Assembly: GCA_937873455.1 (NCBI GenBank)
Contig: CALMYG010000043.1
Span: 124,001 to 188,000 of the forward strand
Reading direction: 5' to 3'
From: an uncultured Verrucomicrobiota bacterium
Lineage (GTDB): Bacteria; Verrucomicrobiota; Kiritimatiellia; CAIVKH01
DNA: 64,000 nucleotides
Under the pieces are notes generated by a model, which was not told the origin of the DNA, ran no database searches, and saw only the letters and a list, made by a program, of their open reading frames with translations. Within the stretch, counting starts at the first letter, position 1. The number at the start of each line of letters is the position of its first letter. Both the position numbers and the translations under genes were made by a program. This document shows, piece after piece, positions 10,729 through 28,432 of this stretch.

Positions 10729-11529
10729 TTACAGCTCCTTAACGGCGTTGACCATGCTGCCCACCCAAGCCGCCGCACGGCGACGTCCCGCCGCGCTGGT
10801 TCCGGCGGCGTGAAATCGCTGAACAATGGCGCTGCCCACCACGACGGCATCCGCCGCTTTGGCCGATTGGGCGGCCAATTCCGGGGTGGATACCCCGAAG
10901 CCCAACGCAACCGGCAAGCGGGAATGTTTTTTGGTGACCCGGACCAGCGCCTCCGCGCCCGCCGCGAGTTCAGATTGCGCACCGGTCACCCCGATGCGGG
11001 AAACGCAATAAATAAAACCGCTCGCCGTTTGAACGATTTTTTTAATGCGTGCCGGCGGAGTGGTCGGGGTTACCAGGGAAATATTGTTCAAATGGTAACG
11101 CCGCATCAGATCAACCAATTCGTCGGACTCCTCCACCGGCATATCCAGAAAGAGCAAGCCATCCACGCCCGCCTTGGCGGAACGGCGCATCATGGATTCG
11201 AAACCGGCCGCATGGTAAGGATTCAAATAGGTATAACACATGATCGGAATCTGGGTGCGTTCGCGCAACGCGGCGATGGTATCCAGCACCCCCGCCGGGG
11301 TCGTCCCGGCGTCCAGAGCGCGATTGGCGGATTCTTGATTCACCCGGCCATCGGCAAGCGGGTCGGAAAAGGGTATGCCCAGCTCCACGATATCCACCCC
11401 GGCCTCCTCCAGCCGCAAAACAATATCCACCGTATCGGCCAGCGAGGGATCTCCGGCGGTGATATAGGCGATGAATCCTTTTTTTCCCTGTTTAGCAAGT
11501 TGGGCAAACGTCGAGTCGATACGTGTCAT
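10729..11529 (-). CDS. trpA: Tryptophan synthase alpha chain
   Basis: 266 residues, the normal size. It cleaves indole-3-glycerol phosphate to indole and glyceraldehyde-3-phosphate. Landmarks: FIAYITAGDPS, the catalytic glutamate in VDIVELGIPFSDP, the second catalytic aspartate in DPLADG, and the phosphate-binding SRIGVTGAQ and ALGFGVSTPELA segments. After the catalytic aspartate the chain reads ADGRVNQ where the best known enzymes have ADGPxIQ. No trpB or other trp genes are in the window. It lies 18 bases downstream of the serpin gene and just ahead of manC, so its expression may be tied to both. Confidence 0.95.
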   Translation of the reverse strand: MTRIDSTFAQLAKQGKKGFIAYITAGDPSLADTVDIVLRLEEAGVDIVELGIPFSDPLADGRVNQESANRALDAGTTPAGVLDTIAALRERTQIPIMCYTYLNPYHAAGFESMMRRSAKAGVDGLLFLDMPVEESDELVDLMRRYHLNNISLVTPTTPPARIKKIVQTASGFIYCVSRIGVTGAQSELAAGAEALVRVTKKHSRLPVALGFGVSTPELAAQSAKAADAVVVGSAIVQRFHAAGTSAAGRRRAAAWVGSMVNAVKEL

Positions 11530-11547: not shown

Positions 11548-12747
11548 CTAAACGGACGGCTCGTTCAACCGCCCCATGAATAAAACACTGCCGGTCGTCT
11601 TATCCTTGATGAAAAACAGGAAGGGACGATCCGCGCGAAACACTGGTTTTTCCTGAGGAACCATGGCACGCGTGGTCATGATGATGCCGGTTGCGGCGGC
11701 AGCCTCGGTTCCCTCTTCGTTGACTTCGATAAACGCCTTGTGGATAGCATCGCTGATGAACAGGTTGTTGACCAATCCGTCCATGCCGGAAAAGTTGGCC
11801 ACCCCTTCTTCAAAGGCATCTGACATGCCGAGGGCGCGAAGCGCGTCGGCGAGACTGAATTGCGAGGTCATCGCGAAACGCGGTAAAAAGACTTCGACTT
11901 CTTGCGTCGTCGCCAGCGCCTCCCACGTCGCCAGCATTTTCGGTGACAGGCTTTTTTCAATCGCCGGTAATGTCTTATCCGCCGCAGGCAGCACCAGCAA
12001 CATGGTTACCTGGTCGCCCTCGTAATCCAGGGACAACACCTGGAAACCGGCCATTTCGCCGTAACCGGCCGACAAGGAAACGTGCATGGTGGGGATATCG
12101 ACCGGCGTTCCCGTTGCCGGATAAAAGGGACGATCCATGGTAGAGGCCTCGGGAAATGGCGTTCGCCACATGCCTTTAAAGTAAACGGCATTGATCAACA
12201 CCATACGGGTCAGAGGAGACAACACGCCCGGCGGAATTAGCTGCGCGATCTTTTCCCGGGTTTTTTCCTCGACCCAGCCATTGATCTGCAGGCGAACCGC
12301 ATCCCCATCCTGATAATCGACCGGGAACACGTCGGCGCGGTAAAACCGGCGGACCAGCTCCAGAAAGTCGGATTCAAACTCGTATCGCTGCTGAGGCCAC
12401 AACGAGTTCGCGGCAATCCACGAAACCCCTTCGTTTTGAAGCCCGGCTAGCCGGGTTTCAAGTTCCCCGAAAATGGGATGCAACACAGCCTGACCAAAAG
12501 GAAAACGCAACGCCTCGGCCATTTGCACTTCCGTTTCGTCCCGGGCCCCGGCGAATGTCATGGCCAGCGCCGAAGAAATGCTGTACGGCGAGAAAAAAAG
12601 ATTGCCGTCCTCTTTTGCCAGTTGGCGGTAGAGATCACAGGCAAAAGCCCGGTTGCCATCCACCAACTCCCGGATGGACTCGTCGTCCGCCCGCAGTCCT
12701 GAAACCGCCGTTATCACGGCGAGAAAAACAAAGGTTGCTGTCCTCAT
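11548..12747 (-). CDS. Secreted serpin with inhibitory-type hinge
   Basis: 399 residues from the ATG preceded by a GGAAGGGG ribosome site. An N-terminal signal peptide (hydrophobic core TATFVFLAVITAVSG, likely cut near LRA/DD) is followed by a full serpin fold: NLFFSPYSISSALAMTFAGA, the MVLINAVYFKGMW shutter region, and the C-terminal RPFLFFIKDKTTGSVLFMGRL. The reactive-centre hinge reads EEGTEAAAATG, the small-residue pattern of inhibitory serpins. Counting 17 residues from the first Glu, as in antitrypsin, puts Arg at P1 (TTR/AM), suggesting trypsin-like proteases as targets. It is first in a run that continues into trpA. Serpins are patchy in bacteria, so acquisition by transfer is possible. 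Confidence 0.94.
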   Translation of the reverse strand: MRTATFVFLAVITAVSGLRADDESIRELVDGNRAFACDLYRQLAKEDGNLFFSPYSISSALAMTFAGARDETEVQMAEALRFPFGQAVLHPIFGELETRLAGLQNEGVSWIAANSLWPQQRYEFESDFLELVRRFYRADVFPVDYQDGDAVRLQINGWVEEKTREKIAQLIPPGVLSPLTRMVLINAVYFKGMWRTPFPEASTMDRPFYPATGTPVDIPTMHVSLSAGYGEMAGFQVLSLDYEGDQVTMLLVLPAADKTLPAIEKSLSPKMLATWEALATTQEVEVFLPRFAMTSQFSLADALRALGMSDAFEEGVANFSGMDGLVNNLFISDAIHKAFIEVNEEGTEAAAATGIIMTTRAMVPQEKPVFRADRPFLFFIKDKTTGSVLFMGRLNEPSV

Positions 12748-12834
12748 ACGTGCCCCTTCCAATAAGAAAGACGGAAGATGCCACAAAATCCGGGGAACGC
12801 CTAGCCTGAATTCTCGATGTTTTCCGCAACGTGC

Positions 12835-23988: not shown

Positions 23989-24993
23989 ATGTCTCACCAC
24001 GTTCGATATGCATTAGCCGCGTTTTACCTATCCCTATTTCTTTTCGGATACGGCGCGCCGGTCCGCGCCCAGATATACGAGGAAGCCGGGAAAAAACATT
24101 CATGGTTCAGCTTTTCGCGGCCAGCCAAAGACAATCCCACGGATCAGATGATTCATGCCGAGGCGTTGCTAAAGGAGCGCCAGCTCCGGCGCGCCGAACG
24201 GGCCTTCCGCTCGCTGGTGTTGACCTGGCCGAGTTCGCCTGAAGCGCCCATGGCGCAATGGGCACTGGCGCGCATCCTGGATCAACGGGGCAAATACGAA
24301 GATGCCTTTGACGCCTACCAGAAACTGATGGAGAAATACCCCGCCCGCTTTCCGGATCACGACCGGGTACTGACTCGGCAGTTTGAAATCGCCACGCAGA
24401 TCATGAACAAGCGGCGGGGCGGTTTTTTCTTCGGCGGCTTCGAAGCCCCGGAACGGGCGATTCCCTTTTTCGAAAAAATTGTCAGAAACGCCCCCCGTTC
24501 CCCCATCGCCCCCGAGGCGCAATTCCTGATCGGGGAGGCGCACGAAAAAAATTACGAATACGAGCTGGCCGTGGTCGCCTACAGCGCGGTATTGCACCGG
24601 TATCCGCTCAGCGATTTTGCCGAACCGGCGGCCTTCGCACGGGCGAGAAGCTTGAACACCTTGTCGGAAAATTATCCGAATGATCGTCAGGCCATCGAAG
24701 AGGCTTGGGCGGGCATCATGGTGTTCCTCCGGAGTTTTCCCCAGTCGGAATTCAGCGACGAAGCGGTGACCATCCGCGACCGCCTACTCAAGCGCAAGGC
24801 GCAGGCAACCTACGAAATCGCCCGTTATTATGACCGGATCGCCAAACGCCCCCAAGCGGCCAAAGTCAGTTACCAACAATTTCTGGAGCAATTTCCCCAA
24901 TCTCCGTGGTCGGATAGCGCGCGTGAGCGCGTTGCCGCCCTCGCCACGACCTCCTCACCCGACAAGGAACTACCCGATGAACAAGCAGAATAA
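23989..24993 (+). CDS. BamD-like TPR outer-membrane assembly protein
   Basis: 334 residues. A Sec signal peptide (ALAAFYLSLFLFGYGAP, cut near VRA/QI) has no lipobox cysteine, unlike E. coli BamD. The mature protein is a string of helical repeats of the YfiO/BamD type: AERAFRSLVLTWPSSPEAPMAQ, FDAYQKLMEKYP, AVVAYSAVLHRYPLSDFAEPA and a final VSYQQFLEQFPQSPWSDSA. Each repeat ends in the YP-x-S pattern of this family. It overlaps lptE by 17 bases, so the operon couples a BAM-like accessory with LPS insertion. Assignment to the BAM complex is inference. Confidence 0.78.
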   Translation: MSHHVRYALAAFYLSLFLFGYGAPVRAQIYEEAGKKHSWFSFSRPAKDNPTDQMIHAEALLKERQLRRAERAFRSLVLTWPSSPEAPMAQWALARILDQRGKYEDAFDAYQKLMEKYPARFPDHDRVLTRQFEIATQIMNKRRGGFFFGGFEAPERAIPFFEKIVRNAPRSPIAPEAQFLIGEAHEKNYEYELAVVAYSAVLHRYPLSDFAEPAAFARARSLNTLSENYPNDRQAIEEAWAGIMVFLRSFPQSEFSDEAVTIRDRLLKRKAQATYEIARYYDRIAKRPQAAKVSYQQFLEQFPQSPWSDSARERVAALATTSSPDKELPDEQAE

Positions 24994-25507
24994 AATAATG
25001 TTTCAAGGTTTTGTGCTCACCGCCACGGCGCTGTTGATGACCCTGGGAACGGGTTGTGCAGGGTATCGGCTCGGCAACATGTTGCCGGGCGACGTGAAAA
25101 CCGTATTTGTTCCCAGTGTGGAGAATCGCTCATCGGAACCGCTGATCGAAGTCGAGCTGACCCGGGCGATTATCAGGCAAATTCAGCAGGATGGCTCACT
25201 GCGAATCGCCGCGGAAGAAGAGGCCGATGCGATATTGACCGTGGTCCTGAATGAGTACCGCCTCGAAGCGGTGGCGTTCCGCTCCGATGACCGGGCGGCC
25301 GCCAATCAATACCGGATTAACCTGGAGGCCAGCATGGTCATGCGCCGCACCCGGGATCAATCCGTGGTGGCGCAGGCTCCGCGAATTCTTGGCAGCGCGG
25401 TTTTTGATGTTGCCGGGGATTTGACGACGTCCAAACAGACCGGAAACCCGCAAGCCGCCAATCAATTGGCGGACCGGATTGTACAGCGGGTTGTCGAGTA
25501 TTGGTGA
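24977..25507 (+). CDS. lptE: LPS-assembly lipoprotein LptE-like
   Basis: 176 residues from the ATG giving MNKQNKIMF, overlapping the upstream gene by 17 bases; longer in-frame starts would precede the signal peptide. The leader ends LGTGC, a lipobox. The mature domain follows the LptE/RlpB pattern: AGYRLGN near the lipidated Cys, KTVFVPSVENRSSEPLIEVEL, TRAIIRQIQQDGSLRI and EADAILTVVLNEYRLEA. LptE plugs the LptD barrel and helps export lipopolysaccharide to the outer leaflet, which supports a diderm LPS-bearing cell. The C-terminus has NQLADRIVQRVVEYW, the usual closing helix. Confidence 0.85.
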   Translation: MNKQNKIMFQGFVLTATALLMTLGTGCAGYRLGNMLPGDVKTVFVPSVENRSSEPLIEVELTRAIIRQIQQDGSLRIAAEEEADAILTVVLNEYRLEAVAFRSDDRAAANQYRINLEASMVMRRTRDQSVVAQAPRILGSAVFDVAGDLTTSKQTGNPQAANQLADRIVQRVVEYW

Positions 25508-25510
25508 GGA

Positions 25511-25780
25511 TCAGGCGGCCGTCGTGGCGCGGAGGCGGGTCGCGGCCCGGGCTTTGCGGCGGATCGCGGTCTGCTTCTTGATGCTGCCTTTTTTCGCGGC
25601 CTTATCCAGCGCGGAACACAGGGCCTTGTAGGCATCCTGGGCATTGGCGCTTTCCTTGGCGTCCAGCGACTTGGTCAACTTGCGGCCGCTGCTCTTGATC
25701 AACGACTTCGCCGCGCTGTTACGGCGTTTCTGTTCCTGATAAATACGGACCTTCTTTTTTGCGCTACTGGTATGGGCCAT
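25511..25780 (-). CDS. rpsT: 30S ribosomal protein S20
   Basis: 89 residues, standard S20 size and composition (Lys, Arg, Ala-rich). MAHTSSAKKKVRIYQEQKRR is the usual basic N-terminus, followed by long helices (SAAKSLIKSSGRKLTKSLDA, ALCSALDKAAKKG) and a final KQTAIRRKARAATRL block. S20 binds 16S rRNA early in 30S assembly. The gene is convergent with lptE with only three bases between stops and has its own promoter and leader at 25820-25910. Confidence 0.95.
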   Translation of the reverse strand: MAHTSSAKKKVRIYQEQKRRNSAAKSLIKSSGRKLTKSLDAKESANAQDAYKALCSALDKAAKKGSIKKQTAIRRKARAATRLRATTAA

Positions 25781-25819
25781 TCTTTACTCCAATCCTACTT
25801 CCGTTGAACTTTGCCCTTT

Positions 25820-25868
25820 CGTTCCCTTCGGGGAACGCGTGTGGCGGGATCCGGGCACCCTTCCCGCC
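25820..25868 (-). promoter_or_regulatory. rpsT: rpsT leader with two hairpins
   Basis: Between the putative promoter and the rpsT start the minus-strand leader can form CGTTCCC-CGAA-GGGAACG (25820-25837) and a GGCGGGA/TCCCGCC stem (25843-25868) with an inner GGG/CCC. S20 mRNAs in some bacteria are autoregulated through their leaders; any such role here is inference. Confidence 0.35.
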
Positions 25869-25882
25869 GTAAAAGTTGGTGA

Positions 25883-25910
25883 ATAGTAAGCATGATGCCC
25901 GCCAAGTCAA
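25883..25910 (-). promoter_or_regulatory. rpsT: Candidate sigma-70 promoter of rpsT
   Basis: Minus strand TTGACT (25905-25910) and TACTAT (25883-25888) are 16 bases apart. The -35 matches five of six consensus positions and the -10 four of six. The implied transcript has a leader of roughly 95 bases containing the hairpins noted at 25820-25868. Confidence 0.45.
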
Positions 25911-25980
25911 CGCCGATTGTTGACCCGTCAGCCGAATTTTAGCATCGTGCGCATAAATGCCATGAATCGCGAATCCGGTT

Positions 25981-26682
25981 ATGATGACCCGTTGGCTTAA
26001 ATTTTTGTTGGGGGTGGCCCTGCTGCCGCTGGCTTATGCCTTGACCCGGGTTTTTGGGGATGCCTTGCTGGGGCAAACCCTTGCCAAAGGGGTCAATCAA
26101 ATGACCGCGTGGTTTCTGGGCGGCTTTGGCGTTTGGCTGGCGCTTTCGTTCCTGTTTCCCCGACCCGTACGGACGTATGTCCTTGGCCATGAGCTGACCC
26201 ATGCCCTGTGGGGTATCTTCATGGGGGCCAAGGTTTCCAAACTCCGTGTCTCCGCAAAAGGCGGCAGCGTGACCCTGGACAAAACCAACATGTGGATCAC
26301 CTTGGCGCCGTACTTTTTCCCGTTTTATACAATCCTTGCCCTGGCCATCTACGTTGCACTCGGATGGTGGATCGACGTATCAACCTATACGCCCTTCTTT
26401 TATGCGGTTTATGGCGCCACCTGGTGTTTTCACCTGGTTTTCACCATCCAGATGCTGGGCATTCGCCAGCCGGACATTCAGGAACACGGCCGCCTATTTT
26501 CCTATGTGGTGATTTATTGCATCAACCTCGCGGTGGCCGCCCTGCTTCTGTTGGTACTTACCGAACAAGCGCCCCTTGCCATGGCCCGGGAAACCTGGGA
26601 ACAAACCCGCCACGCTTACGCGGCCAGCCTGGCCGGATTGCGGTACCTGAACAGCCAAATGGCCGGGGGCGCATTTTGGTAA
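25981..26682 (+). CDS. Polytopic membrane protein with HExxH motif, M50-like
   Basis: 233 residues with about six hydrophobic segments. VLGHELTHALWG at residues 68-79 is an HExxH zinc-protease motif placed just after the second membrane helix, and TLAPYFFPFYTILAL follows about 25 residues later, the order seen in site-2-protease-like (M50) peptidases. A typical third-ligand NPDG motif is not evident, so catalytic ability is uncertain. It ends 50 bases ahead of the ECF sigma gene on the same strand. M50 proteases commonly release sigma factors by cutting anti-sigma proteins in the membrane; that link here is inference. The start may be either of two adjacent ATGs. Confidence 0.75.
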   Translation: MMTRWLKFLLGVALLPLAYALTRVFGDALLGQTLAKGVNQMTAWFLGGFGVWLALSFLFPRPVRTYVLGHELTHALWGIFMGAKVSKLRVSAKGGSVTLDKTNMWITLAPYFFPFYTILALAIYVALGWWIDVSTYTPFFYAVYGATWCFHLVFTIQMLGIRQPDIQEHGRLFSYVVIYCINLAVAALLLLVLTEQAPLAMARETWEQTRHAYAASLAGLRYLNSQMAGGAFW

Positions 26683-26732
26683 CACTATTTTTTACGCCAA
26701 TACGTTGTATAGACAGAACGTGAAACGTTTCC

Positions 26733-27320
26733 ATGCAAAACGACCACCCGGAACAGCAATGGATCAAGGACTACCAACGTGGCGACCTCGGTGCGCTGGA
26801 GCGGTTGGTGGAGCATTTCCGCCGTCCGCTGTTTGCGTATATTCTCAACCTGCAACAAGGGCGAGGCGACCCCGAGGAGATTTTTCAGGAAGTATGGCTG
26901 CGGGCCATTCAGCATCTGCCGGCTTATCGGGATCGGAACTTTGCCGGCTGGTTGTTTCGAATCGCCCGGAATTTATTTATCGACCGCGTCCGCATGGAGC
27001 AGCGGCGCGCCGAACCGCCCCCGGGACCGGACACCGGGGGGCAAGGCGATTGGATCGAACGCTGGCCCGATTCCCGGCCAAGTCCGGATGGTATTGTCGC
27101 CGACCGGGATCTTGGCCGCCGAATTCAGGACGCGCTCCAGGAACTACCGCCGGATCAACGGGAAATCTTCCTGCTGCGCTCCGAGGCGGATATGCCGTTC
27201 AAGGAGATTGCCCGTTTGTTGAACATCAGCATCAATACCGCACTGGCCCGGATGCGCTACGCGCTGAACAAACTTCGCCCCCTTTTAATCGAGGATTATC
27301 GACTGCTTCACCGGGACTAA
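26733..27320 (+). CDS. ECF-family RNA polymerase sigma factor
   Basis: 195 residues. Region 2 is visible in DLGALERLVEHFRRPLFAYIL and EEIFQEVWLRAIQHLPAY, with NFAGWLFRIARNLFIDRVR as region 2.4 plus linker. Region 4 is LPPDQREIFLLRSEADMP followed by FKEIARLLNISINTALARMR, the helix-turn-helix that reads -35 elements. There is no region 1 or 3, as expected for group 4 sigma factors. The 10-base palindrome GAAACGTTTC lies immediately before the ATG and there is no clear Shine-Dalgarno. Two small genes follow at once, probably its regulator and an exported partner. Confidence 0.92.
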   Translation: MQNDHPEQQWIKDYQRGDLGALERLVEHFRRPLFAYILNLQQGRGDPEEIFQEVWLRAIQHLPAYRDRNFAGWLFRIARNLFIDRVRMEQRRAEPPPGPDTGGQGDWIERWPDSRPSPDGIVADRDLGRRIQDALQELPPDQREIFLLRSEADMPFKEIARLLNISINTALARMRYALNKLRPLLIEDYRLLHRD

Positions 27321-27324
27321 CATC

Positions 27325-27723
27325 ATGAATACGTTTGAACCGCCAAGCGATGAACAACTGGTTAATGACACGCGTCGGGCGCTGTCCCGCCGAATGGATA
27401 TCCCCCCCACCCCGCGCGATACCCTGGCCGTGCTCCGACAGGCCGCGGAACAGCGGCGGCAAACCACCGCGGCGACCGGATGGTGGCGGGCCATCGCGTT
27501 GCGACCTCTTTGGGTGGCCGCATGCGTTCTTTTTATCGGCCTGGCCGGTTGGTGGAGCTGGCTCGAACCATCCCGTGATGCCACCTCGGTGATGACGCCA
27601 GAGGCCATTGATCCAGGATTTGATCTGGCCGACTGGACGCTGGAGTTTGCCGCCTTGCACGACGAAATTGAACAATCCATCCTGCTCGGTGAAGAGATCG
27701 ATTGGTTAGAAACCTGGAACTAA
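27325..27723 (+). CDS. Single-pass membrane protein, possible anti-sigma factor
   Basis: 132 residues, starting four bases after the sigma gene. A cytosolic N-terminal segment of about 60 residues (EQLVNDTRRALSRR, DTLAVLRQAAEQRR) is followed by one transmembrane helix (LWVAACVLFIGLAGWWSW, about 63-80) and a short acidic outer part. Topology and position match small anti-sigma proteins, but there is no zinc-binding HxxxCxxC motif, so the assignment rests on context. The acidic tail after the helix could be the exposed signal-receiving part. Confidence 0.55.
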   Translation: MNTFEPPSDEQLVNDTRRALSRRMDIPPTPRDTLAVLRQAAEQRRQTTAATGWWRAIALRPLWVAACVLFIGLAGWWSWLEPSRDATSVMTPEAIDPGFDLADWTLEFAALHDEIEQSILLGEEIDWLETWN

Positions 27724-27736
27724 AAGGAATAATAAC

Positions 27737-28432
27737 ATGAAAATCCTTCCTCTCGCCCTGATGGCGTGCTGGGTGATCGCGGTCGAAACCGGTTATGGCC
27801 AACCCGAACGCAACCGACCTCAAGACAACGGAAACCGCGAGCGGCCCGGACGTTTGGAGCGTGGCGATCAGCGAGCAAGTCCCCCGCTCTACCGATGGAT
27901 GCAGGATCTCCGCACTTCGGACCCGGAGTTATTTGCGCGGCTCCAAGCCCTGCGGAGGGAAAACCCGCCGGCCTTTCGTGAAGAAGCCCGACGGATGGCC
28001 TATGAGAAAATTCAGGATACCTTACGCCGGGAACGCCCGGCTGTTTTTAATGCCTTGGCGGGCCTTTCCGAGGATGACCGGAACTGGATGGTGGAGCGGT
28101 TGGTCGCCTGGTCGGGCGGCATGCGCCCCAAACCGGCGCACCACGCACCGGATGTTGTACCCCGCGATGACAAACGACCGGAGCGCGCGCCCGACTTGGT
28201 GCGTCGTCACCGGTTGGCTTCGGATATGGAAGAACGTGCCCGTATTCGCGAACAATTGCGGGACATGCTCGCCCAACAGTATGATGAACACTGGCAGACT
28301 CGCCGGGAGCAGCTCGCCGAGATGGAAGAAAAACTCGCGGCCATGCGGCGCGCCTTGGAGGAGGGTCAGGAAGGGCGCGACCGGATGATCGAAGACGCCT
28401 TGTCAACGCTGCTGGATGGCGCCATCCCGTAA
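27737..28432 (+). CDS. Exported Arg/Glu-rich helical protein, possible sensor partner
   Basis: 231 residues. A signal peptide (KILPLALMACWVIAVETGYG) is followed by a charged, Pro-Arg-rich stretch and then long amphipathic helices (EEARRMAYEKIQDTLRRERP, EERARIREQLRDML, REQLAEMEEKLAAMRRALEE) resembling Spy/CpxP-like or heavy-metal-resistance periplasmic chaperones in composition, though without their LTxxQ motif. Third gene of the sigma module, 13 bases after the second, with AAAGGAA as ribosome site. Its tail overlaps the convergent queG gene by 30 bases. Function unknown. Confidence 0.6.
   Translation: MKILPLALMACWVIAVETGYGQPERNRPQDNGNRERPGRLERGDQRASPPLYRWMQDLRTSDPELFARLQALRRENPPAFREEARRMAYEKIQDTLRRERPAVFNALAGLSEDDRNWMVERLVAWSGGMRPKPAHHAPDVVPRDDKRPERAPDLVRRHRLASDMEERARIREQLRDMLAQQYDEHWQTRREQLAEMEEKLAAMRRALEEGQEGRDRMIEDALSTLLDGAIP

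Follow-up and report, generated by a model that had tools for sequence, protein, structure and literature searches.

Positions 25,981 to 28,432 of a 64,000-nucleotide stretch of DNA from an uncultured Verrucomicrobiota bacterium of the class Kiritimatiellia (GCA_937873455.1, contig CALMYG010000043.1, positions 124,001 to 188,000; hereafter the window) carry four genes in a row, here called A to D, which encode a membrane protein with a HELTH motif, an extracytoplasmic function (ECF) sigma factor, a small protein with one transmembrane (TM) segment and an exported helical protein. Do these genes form a single self-contained envelope-signal module in which a protease controls release of the sigma factor, as a sequence-only reading of the locus had proposed? 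All four are real open reading frames (ORFs) on the plus strand, as that reading had it. Comparison with related genomes makes it probable that B, C and D constitute an autoregulated operon of sigma factor, anti-sigma factor and exported protein with a small exported-protein regulon, and that A is separate from it. The features concerned are the following.

25981..26682, plus strand: gene A, membrane metalloprotease-like protein (HELTH; M50B-like) of 233 aa with HELTH at residues 70-74; probably a neighbor of the sigma unit
26683..26706, plus strand: predicted sigma-dependent promoter, CACTA-N15-CGTT (from sequence, whole-genome pattern match, position weight matrix and class-wide motif)
26733..27320, plus strand: gene B, ECF sigma factor with regions 2 and 4, 195 aa (Pfam, over cut-off)
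27325..27723, plus strand: gene C, predicted anti-sigma factor with one TM segment, shortened and zinc-less, 132 aa (family traced by position)
27737..28432, plus strand: gene D, exported helical protein matching no known family, 231 aa; third gene of the predicted sigma operon

B is an ECF sigma factor, as had been proposed: PF04542 (56.4 bits) and PF08281 (55.0 bits), for regions 2 and 4, both exceeded their Pfam cut-offs, and no sigma region 3 family was matched up to E 1. The best NCBIfam model, PRK12513, scored 156.7 bits, under its cut-off of 206. Homologues of B were sought at E ≤ 1e-20, and those of A at E ≤ 0.001, in 97 genomes comprising the window genome and its relatives. B was matched in 79 of the 97. 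The 80 sigma loci analyzed below are the window, L194, which was found beside A, and the best locus from each of the remaining 78 matching genomes; most A loci located away from the sigma gene were also retrieved.

Upstream of this sigma gene, across the class, we detected the element (G/A)CAATAA-N15/16-CGTTAT. An unsupervised count of dyads returned CAATA-N15-CGTT in 48 of the 80 sigma upstream regions, while the commonest shuffled dyad occurred in three. Allowing spacers of 14 to 17 nucleotides, CAATA and CGTT were found exactly at 66 of the 80 loci, with a spacer that was always 15 or 16. A position weight matrix (PWM) reached a score of at least 12 in 70 of the 80 upstream regions compared to 0.25% of shuffles and, with a second start-codon rule, a score of at least 10 in 79 of the 80 (the window not included). 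None of the control genes scored 10 or more (BamD, 0/34; LptE, 0/35; S20, 0/50; A, 0/85; HK, 0/2). All 20 loci of this sigma factor in other classes of Verrucomicrobiota, chosen by us from 56 "same phylum" genomes with a match, scored at least 9.3. In the window, CACTA-N15-CGTT lies directly past the stop codon of A, with CGTT 30 nt before the sigma start, and scored 12.0 and 11.0 in two rescans. This promoter-like element upstream of the sigma gene is new here, and we infer that it is the sigma factor's own promoter. A review describes ECF promoters as having an AAC -35 and a CGT -10 and as autoregulated (PMC8103513); the CGTT -10 is present here, but the -35 is CAATAA (CACTA in the window) rather than AAC.

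Two points weigh against this assignment. Sigma upstream regions served as training data for the PWM, and its scores there are therefore high partly by construction; the motif is supported independently by the unsupervised dyads, by the gene controls and by the target genes considered below. In addition, the window promoter itself deviates, having CACTA in place of CAATA, and in the first PWM scan a filter applied to the -35 half left it without a score, among the 10 loci that failed. The element might instead bind another regulator or another sigma factor. This would fit the one Metal_resist gene that is preceded by the motif in a genome scored as lacking the sigma gene (G066), although G066 carries a sigma gene cut by a contig end beside A. 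We judge such an alternative very unlikely, given that the CGTT -10 agrees with ECF promoters as given in PMC8103513, that among 17 sigma-region-2 loci in two genomes the motif preceded both members of this sigma group and none of the 15 other sigma genes, and that it was found at none of the five Metal_resist loci in the remaining sigma-negative genomes, which all belong to one family.

Further sites were noted. A second site in the window (11006-11029, plus strand; pattern score 21.2) lies antisense inside a minus-strand frame, 10729-11529, which resembles tryptophan synthase alpha, and was treated as chance. Separately, in two families, at L455 (G000:C34) and L449 (G081), another ECF sigma gene is preceded by a comparable element, TTTCTAAGAA-N15-CGTT-like, and perhaps represents a further self-regulated ECF group.

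What else might this sigma factor transcribe? A strict form of the pattern had 80 sites in the 97 genomes, compared to 27 for the reversed pattern. By our count 17 of the 80 precede the sigma gene; of the remaining 63, the analysis covered 61, all but two in G018. At 53 of these 61, an ORF of 80 aa or more starts within ~110 bp downstream. Among the Pfam matches listed for these 53 ORFs (25 of 57 families), EF-hand_1 occurred 11 times, Metal_resist 10, LTXXQ seven and sulfatase four, together with single unrelated families. For the reversed pattern, 12 of the 27 sites have an ORF, and none of these matched EF-hand_1, Metal_resist or LTXXQ. We also examined regions upstream of Metal_resist genes, covering 30 loci among the 76 matches listed, located by the coordinates of the matches, and counting motif scores of at least 10. 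Among these, the motif was present at 16 of 24 loci in genomes with the sigma gene and one of six in genomes scored as lacking it, that one being G066, with shuffles at 0.4%. The other five sigma-negative loci, being from a single family, are not independent. In the window genome the case for a regulon rests on site positions: a relaxed pattern gave three sites, one at the sigma gene, another 38 bp ahead of the genome's single Metal_resist match, and a third with no ORF. The occurrence of the motif before the sigma gene and before exported Metal_resist/LTXXQ (Spy/CpxP-like) and EF-hand genes suggests that B, C and D probably form an autoregulated envelope-stress operon and that the sigma factor probably governs a small regulon of such genes. 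Four motif sites, at L315, L324, L333 and L334, precede sulfatase-like genes, which are no more than possible targets.

Several observations count against a regulon of this kind. The 53 ORFs include an integrase-family match, an IspD-family match and shadow-like frames, and not all are exported, while at least two of the control ORFs (L362 and L373) look exported too. The relaxed pattern is not enriched in the window genome, with three sites compared to seven for the reversed pattern. More generally, the comparison genomes are drafts, and many of the named relatives are metagenome-assembled.

The protein encoded next after the sigma gene in most relatives, as in the window, has one TM segment. 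Used alone as a query, C gave confident matches in just two of the 97 genomes, so the family was traced by gene position. We extracted 73 one-TM proteins that follow the sigma gene; L084, an over-long frame, was omitted from this 73-row alignment and counted in the 74-member motif tally. The sequence-only reading had described a one-TM protein without the usual zinc motif and of a family it did not recognize. The first part holds, with the hydrophobic segment of C starting at residue 56 and HxxxCxxC absent. The second does not: 39 of 74 members of the family (the window included) have HxxxCxxC, 35 of 73 match zf-HC2, and the family profile searched against PDB matched RsiW across the anti-sigma domain (E 3e-6), ChrR (6e-4) and the membrane protein 3hug (0.0039). 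Three of the 73 also matched DUF3379 weakly (best 1.3e-4). C is likely the anti-sigma factor of B, judging by position and family profile. According to PMC7406223, HxxxCxxC is already known to be optional among class I anti-sigma factors, with mixed zinc and zinc-less groups.

C is short. It has 132 aa, and its same-genus relative 143 aa, both on the short side for the family; their hydrophobic segments begin at residues 56 and 65, respectively, compared to a family median of 89.5. Aligned with 30 zinc-containing members, this pair gave an hhalign E of 4.5e-7 over the TM segment and C-terminal tail only. C seems to derive from a class I anti-sigma factor of the zinc-finger type, with the zinc motif and part of the N-terminal domain lost in this genus. 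On the sigma tree the zinc motif requires 11 changes (73 rows, with 33 of the 76 inner branches left open), and short versions of C also occur at L129 and L141, in the same class, and at five loci in another class. The N-terminus of the window protein, which is hard to recognize as an anti-sigma domain, counts against this reading: the score of a helix-4 model was reached by 54 of 1000 shuffles and that of helices 1-3 by 100 of 1000, and a reading in which C retains helix 4 only was set aside as not significant. On the short anti-sigma candidates of the other class the helix-4 model did better, though unevenly: for three of five, no more than 12 of 1000 shuffles reached the score. These candidates (L423, L425, L431, L432 and L434, in another Verrucomicrobiota class) have 102-136 aa, ~40 cytoplasmic residues and VPxxLDxxILxxA. 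A minimal two-helix anti-sigma factor, CnrY, is already known, according to PMC7406223 and PMC4598750.

D has a signal-peptide-like N-terminus and is charged and helical, as expected of the exported charged protein first described. With an iterated hidden Markov model, its homologue was found as the third gene at 48 of the 80 sigma loci, always downstream of the sigma gene; its absence from the other 32, several of which end soon past C, is a point against the operon reading. The consensus begins like a signal peptide, contains a dPeEyeRL..LR..dP.aFR block and has a long helix at the C-terminus. In the structure model (mean pLDDT 80.8, pTM 0.44) a helical region is accompanied by a single long helix, and neither Foldseek nor a PDB profile search gave convincing relatives. 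In a Pfam scan, A, C and D individually reached no curated cut-off, and no family was matched by more than two of 47 D members (17 families were matched by any member at E ≤ 0.01). Two candidate identities were dropped. Metal_resist and LTXXQ are absent from those 17 families, and hhalign to Metal_resist-like targets covered the signal peptide only, which speaks against D as a Metal_resist/Spy relative. Proteobacterial sigma operons with DUF3619 and DUF3106 proteins exist, and neither DUF3619 for C nor DUF3106 for D turned up in Pfam scans of the window or the families.

How does A relate to this operon? Homologues of A were detected in 87 of the 97 genomes; the 80 listed on named contigs come mostly from Kiritimatiellia/Kiritimatiellales, Lentisphaerae and Verrucomicrobia. 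HExxH, which lies beside a predicted membrane helix, is found in all 86 aligned homologues, as are H151, Q163 and G170, and D165, in 85 of the 86, would be the third, acidic metal ligand. The window copy scored 15.7 bits against PF13398 (M50B), under the cut-off of 26, and M50B matched 59 of the 86 homologues (E ≤ 0.01, best 9.3e-8). The structure model has a mean pLDDT of 95.2, with complexes of SpoIVFB as the top two Foldseek matches (E 0.011 and 0.030) and MjS2P at rank 6. Its VIA-align Z of 5.3 was tied with unrelated transporters, site-2 protease chains did not score above unrelated ones, and a profile of A matched no PDB sequence up to E 1. A is a conserved, probably proteolytic membrane protein; of the putative intramembrane protease first proposed, a plausible membrane metalloprotease with invariant HExxH is retained, without a window copy that reaches the Pfam cut-off. 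Upstream of A in the window lie three further genes.

23989..24993, plus strand: BamD/YfiO-like TPR protein (Pfam YfiO, 3.3e-15; synteny)
24830..25507, plus strand: LptE-like protein (Pfam LptE, 5e-12 on 24953-25504; synteny)
25511..25780, minus strand: ribosomal protein S20, named from its sequence (the order recurs in many relatives)

Elsewhere in the window, an exported-looking ORF of 412 aa (11548-12786, minus strand) reads like a serpin.

A adjoins the sigma gene on the same strand in 28 of the 69 genomes with both, spread over 17 of 28 families, and because this arrangement recurs a functional link between the two may exist. One account, in line with the original proposal, has A as a dedicated site-2 protease that cleaves C and frees the sigma factor, all four genes forming one module. 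Besides the adjacency, the invariant HExxH, the near-invariant D165 and the SpoIVFB and MjS2P matches speak for it; so many observations run the other way that we consider it unlikely. All 18 genomes that lack a sigma match have A, two of them (G066 and G093) with a contig-cut sigma gene beside it, and A was undetected in 10 genomes with the sigma gene. The adjacency requires 14 changes on the sigma tree. No sigma-type motif precedes A (0/85 at PWM ≥ 10, with the dyad count in agreement), which speaks against A as a target of the sigma factor, and the genome encodes a separate, strong M50 protein. The structural Z is tied with that of unrelated transporters, and the usual neighbors of A are BamD, LptE and S20 even where the sigma gene is elsewhere.

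The adjacency could instead be inherited gene order only, with A acting in envelope or outer-membrane biogenesis and having no part in sigma control, to which we give about an even chance. The block of BamD-like, LptE-like, S20 (opposite strand) and A (23989-26682; in relatives, for example, at L082, L146, L151 and L166) is kept in many Kiritimatiellia, even with the sigma gene elsewhere, B has a separate predicted sigma promoter downstream of A, genomes with A only exist, and in three genomes of one genus (L120, L128 and L138) the sigma gene directly follows S20 with A undetected. Against inherited order alone stands the spread of the adjacency across 17 families and its clustering on the tree, where its 14 changes compare to a shuffled mean of 22 and none of 500 shuffles was as low; selection or descent could explain this. 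Overall, A is probably an adjoining gene rather than a proven part of the switch. The self-contained four-gene module was not borne out, with A lacking the motif and a predicted promoter lying between it and B, and protease-controlled release is not supported as it was stated, on the same evidence together with the A-only and sigma-only genomes and the other M50 protein. Conserved synteny, which had been suggested as a check, was found in part: the adjacency recurs, but each gene also occurs without the other.

For the preferred arrangement, an operon of B, C and D with A apart, the gene identities, synteny, motif and motif-target association were read from sequence, and the binding of the sigma factor by C, sensing by D and the order of events can be proposed as follows. 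C would retain the sigma factor at the inner membrane until it was freed by a signal from the envelope, perhaps via D and/or the periplasmic tail of C. The freed sigma factor would transcribe the operon that encodes it, from the (G/A)CAATAA-N15/16-CGTTAT-type promoter (CACTA-N15-CGTT in the window), as well as exported Metal_resist/LTXXQ (Spy/CpxP-like) and EF-hand genes. A would be a widely kept metalloprotease-like protein of the BamD-LptE-S20 neighborhood that often sits beside the sigma gene. The switch seems to be a hitherto undescribed version of a familiar envelope-stress logic, with unusual parts. A broader proposal, which we put forward tentatively and with more doubt than confidence, is of an undescribed Verrucomicrobiota-wide ECF group with a CAATAA -35, in which the anti-sigma factor was pared down several times from the zinc class I form towards a CnrY-like minimum and D is a new periplasmic sensor or partner of a Spy-like/EF-hand regulon. 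If true, this would show a route by which minimal anti-sigma factors originate, as a natural series that shed the zinc domain with the switch retained. A poorly studied phylum would gain a predicted envelope-stress regulon whose promoter and targets are named, and the -35 element would differ from the AAC of canonical ECF sigma factors. Our literature search returned no paper joining Kiritimatiellia or Lentisphaerae with an ECF sigma and anti-sigma factor, none combining ECF, EF-hand, Spy and anti-sigma, and none linking DUF3379 to a sigma factor.

Each part of the locus resembles a known system and departs from it. A recalls the M50 site-2 proteases SpoIVFB and RseP in its HExxH by a predicted membrane helix, conserved downstream Asp and best Foldseek matches to SpoIVFB, but the Foldseek E is just 0.011, the Z of 5.3 is shared with unrelated membrane proteins and the PDB profile search was negative to E 1. 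The C family recalls SigW-RsiW and SigE-ChrR through its profile matches and the HxxxCxxC of 39 of its 74 members, whereas C of the window is short and lacks the zinc motif. A further parallel is CnrYXH of Cupriavidus metallidurans, in which CnrY has one TM segment and CnrX is of the Metal_resist kind. The likeness lies in an ECF sigma factor, a short anti-sigma factor (CnrY, class II, with a two-helix cytoplasmic part) and a periplasmic sensor, CnrX, as PMC4598750 and PMC7406223 describe them. Here, however, D has no Metal_resist match, the relatives of C are class I, and the Metal_resist gene, a predicted target, is not linked to the operon. Finally, according to PMC13171946, CaBP-SigV of Caulobacter vibrioides likewise ties an exported EF-hand protein to an ECF sigma factor; there the EF-hand gene adjoins the sigma gene and the -35 is GGAA-like, whereas here the EF-hand genes, as predicted targets, are not linked to it and the -35 reads CAATAA.

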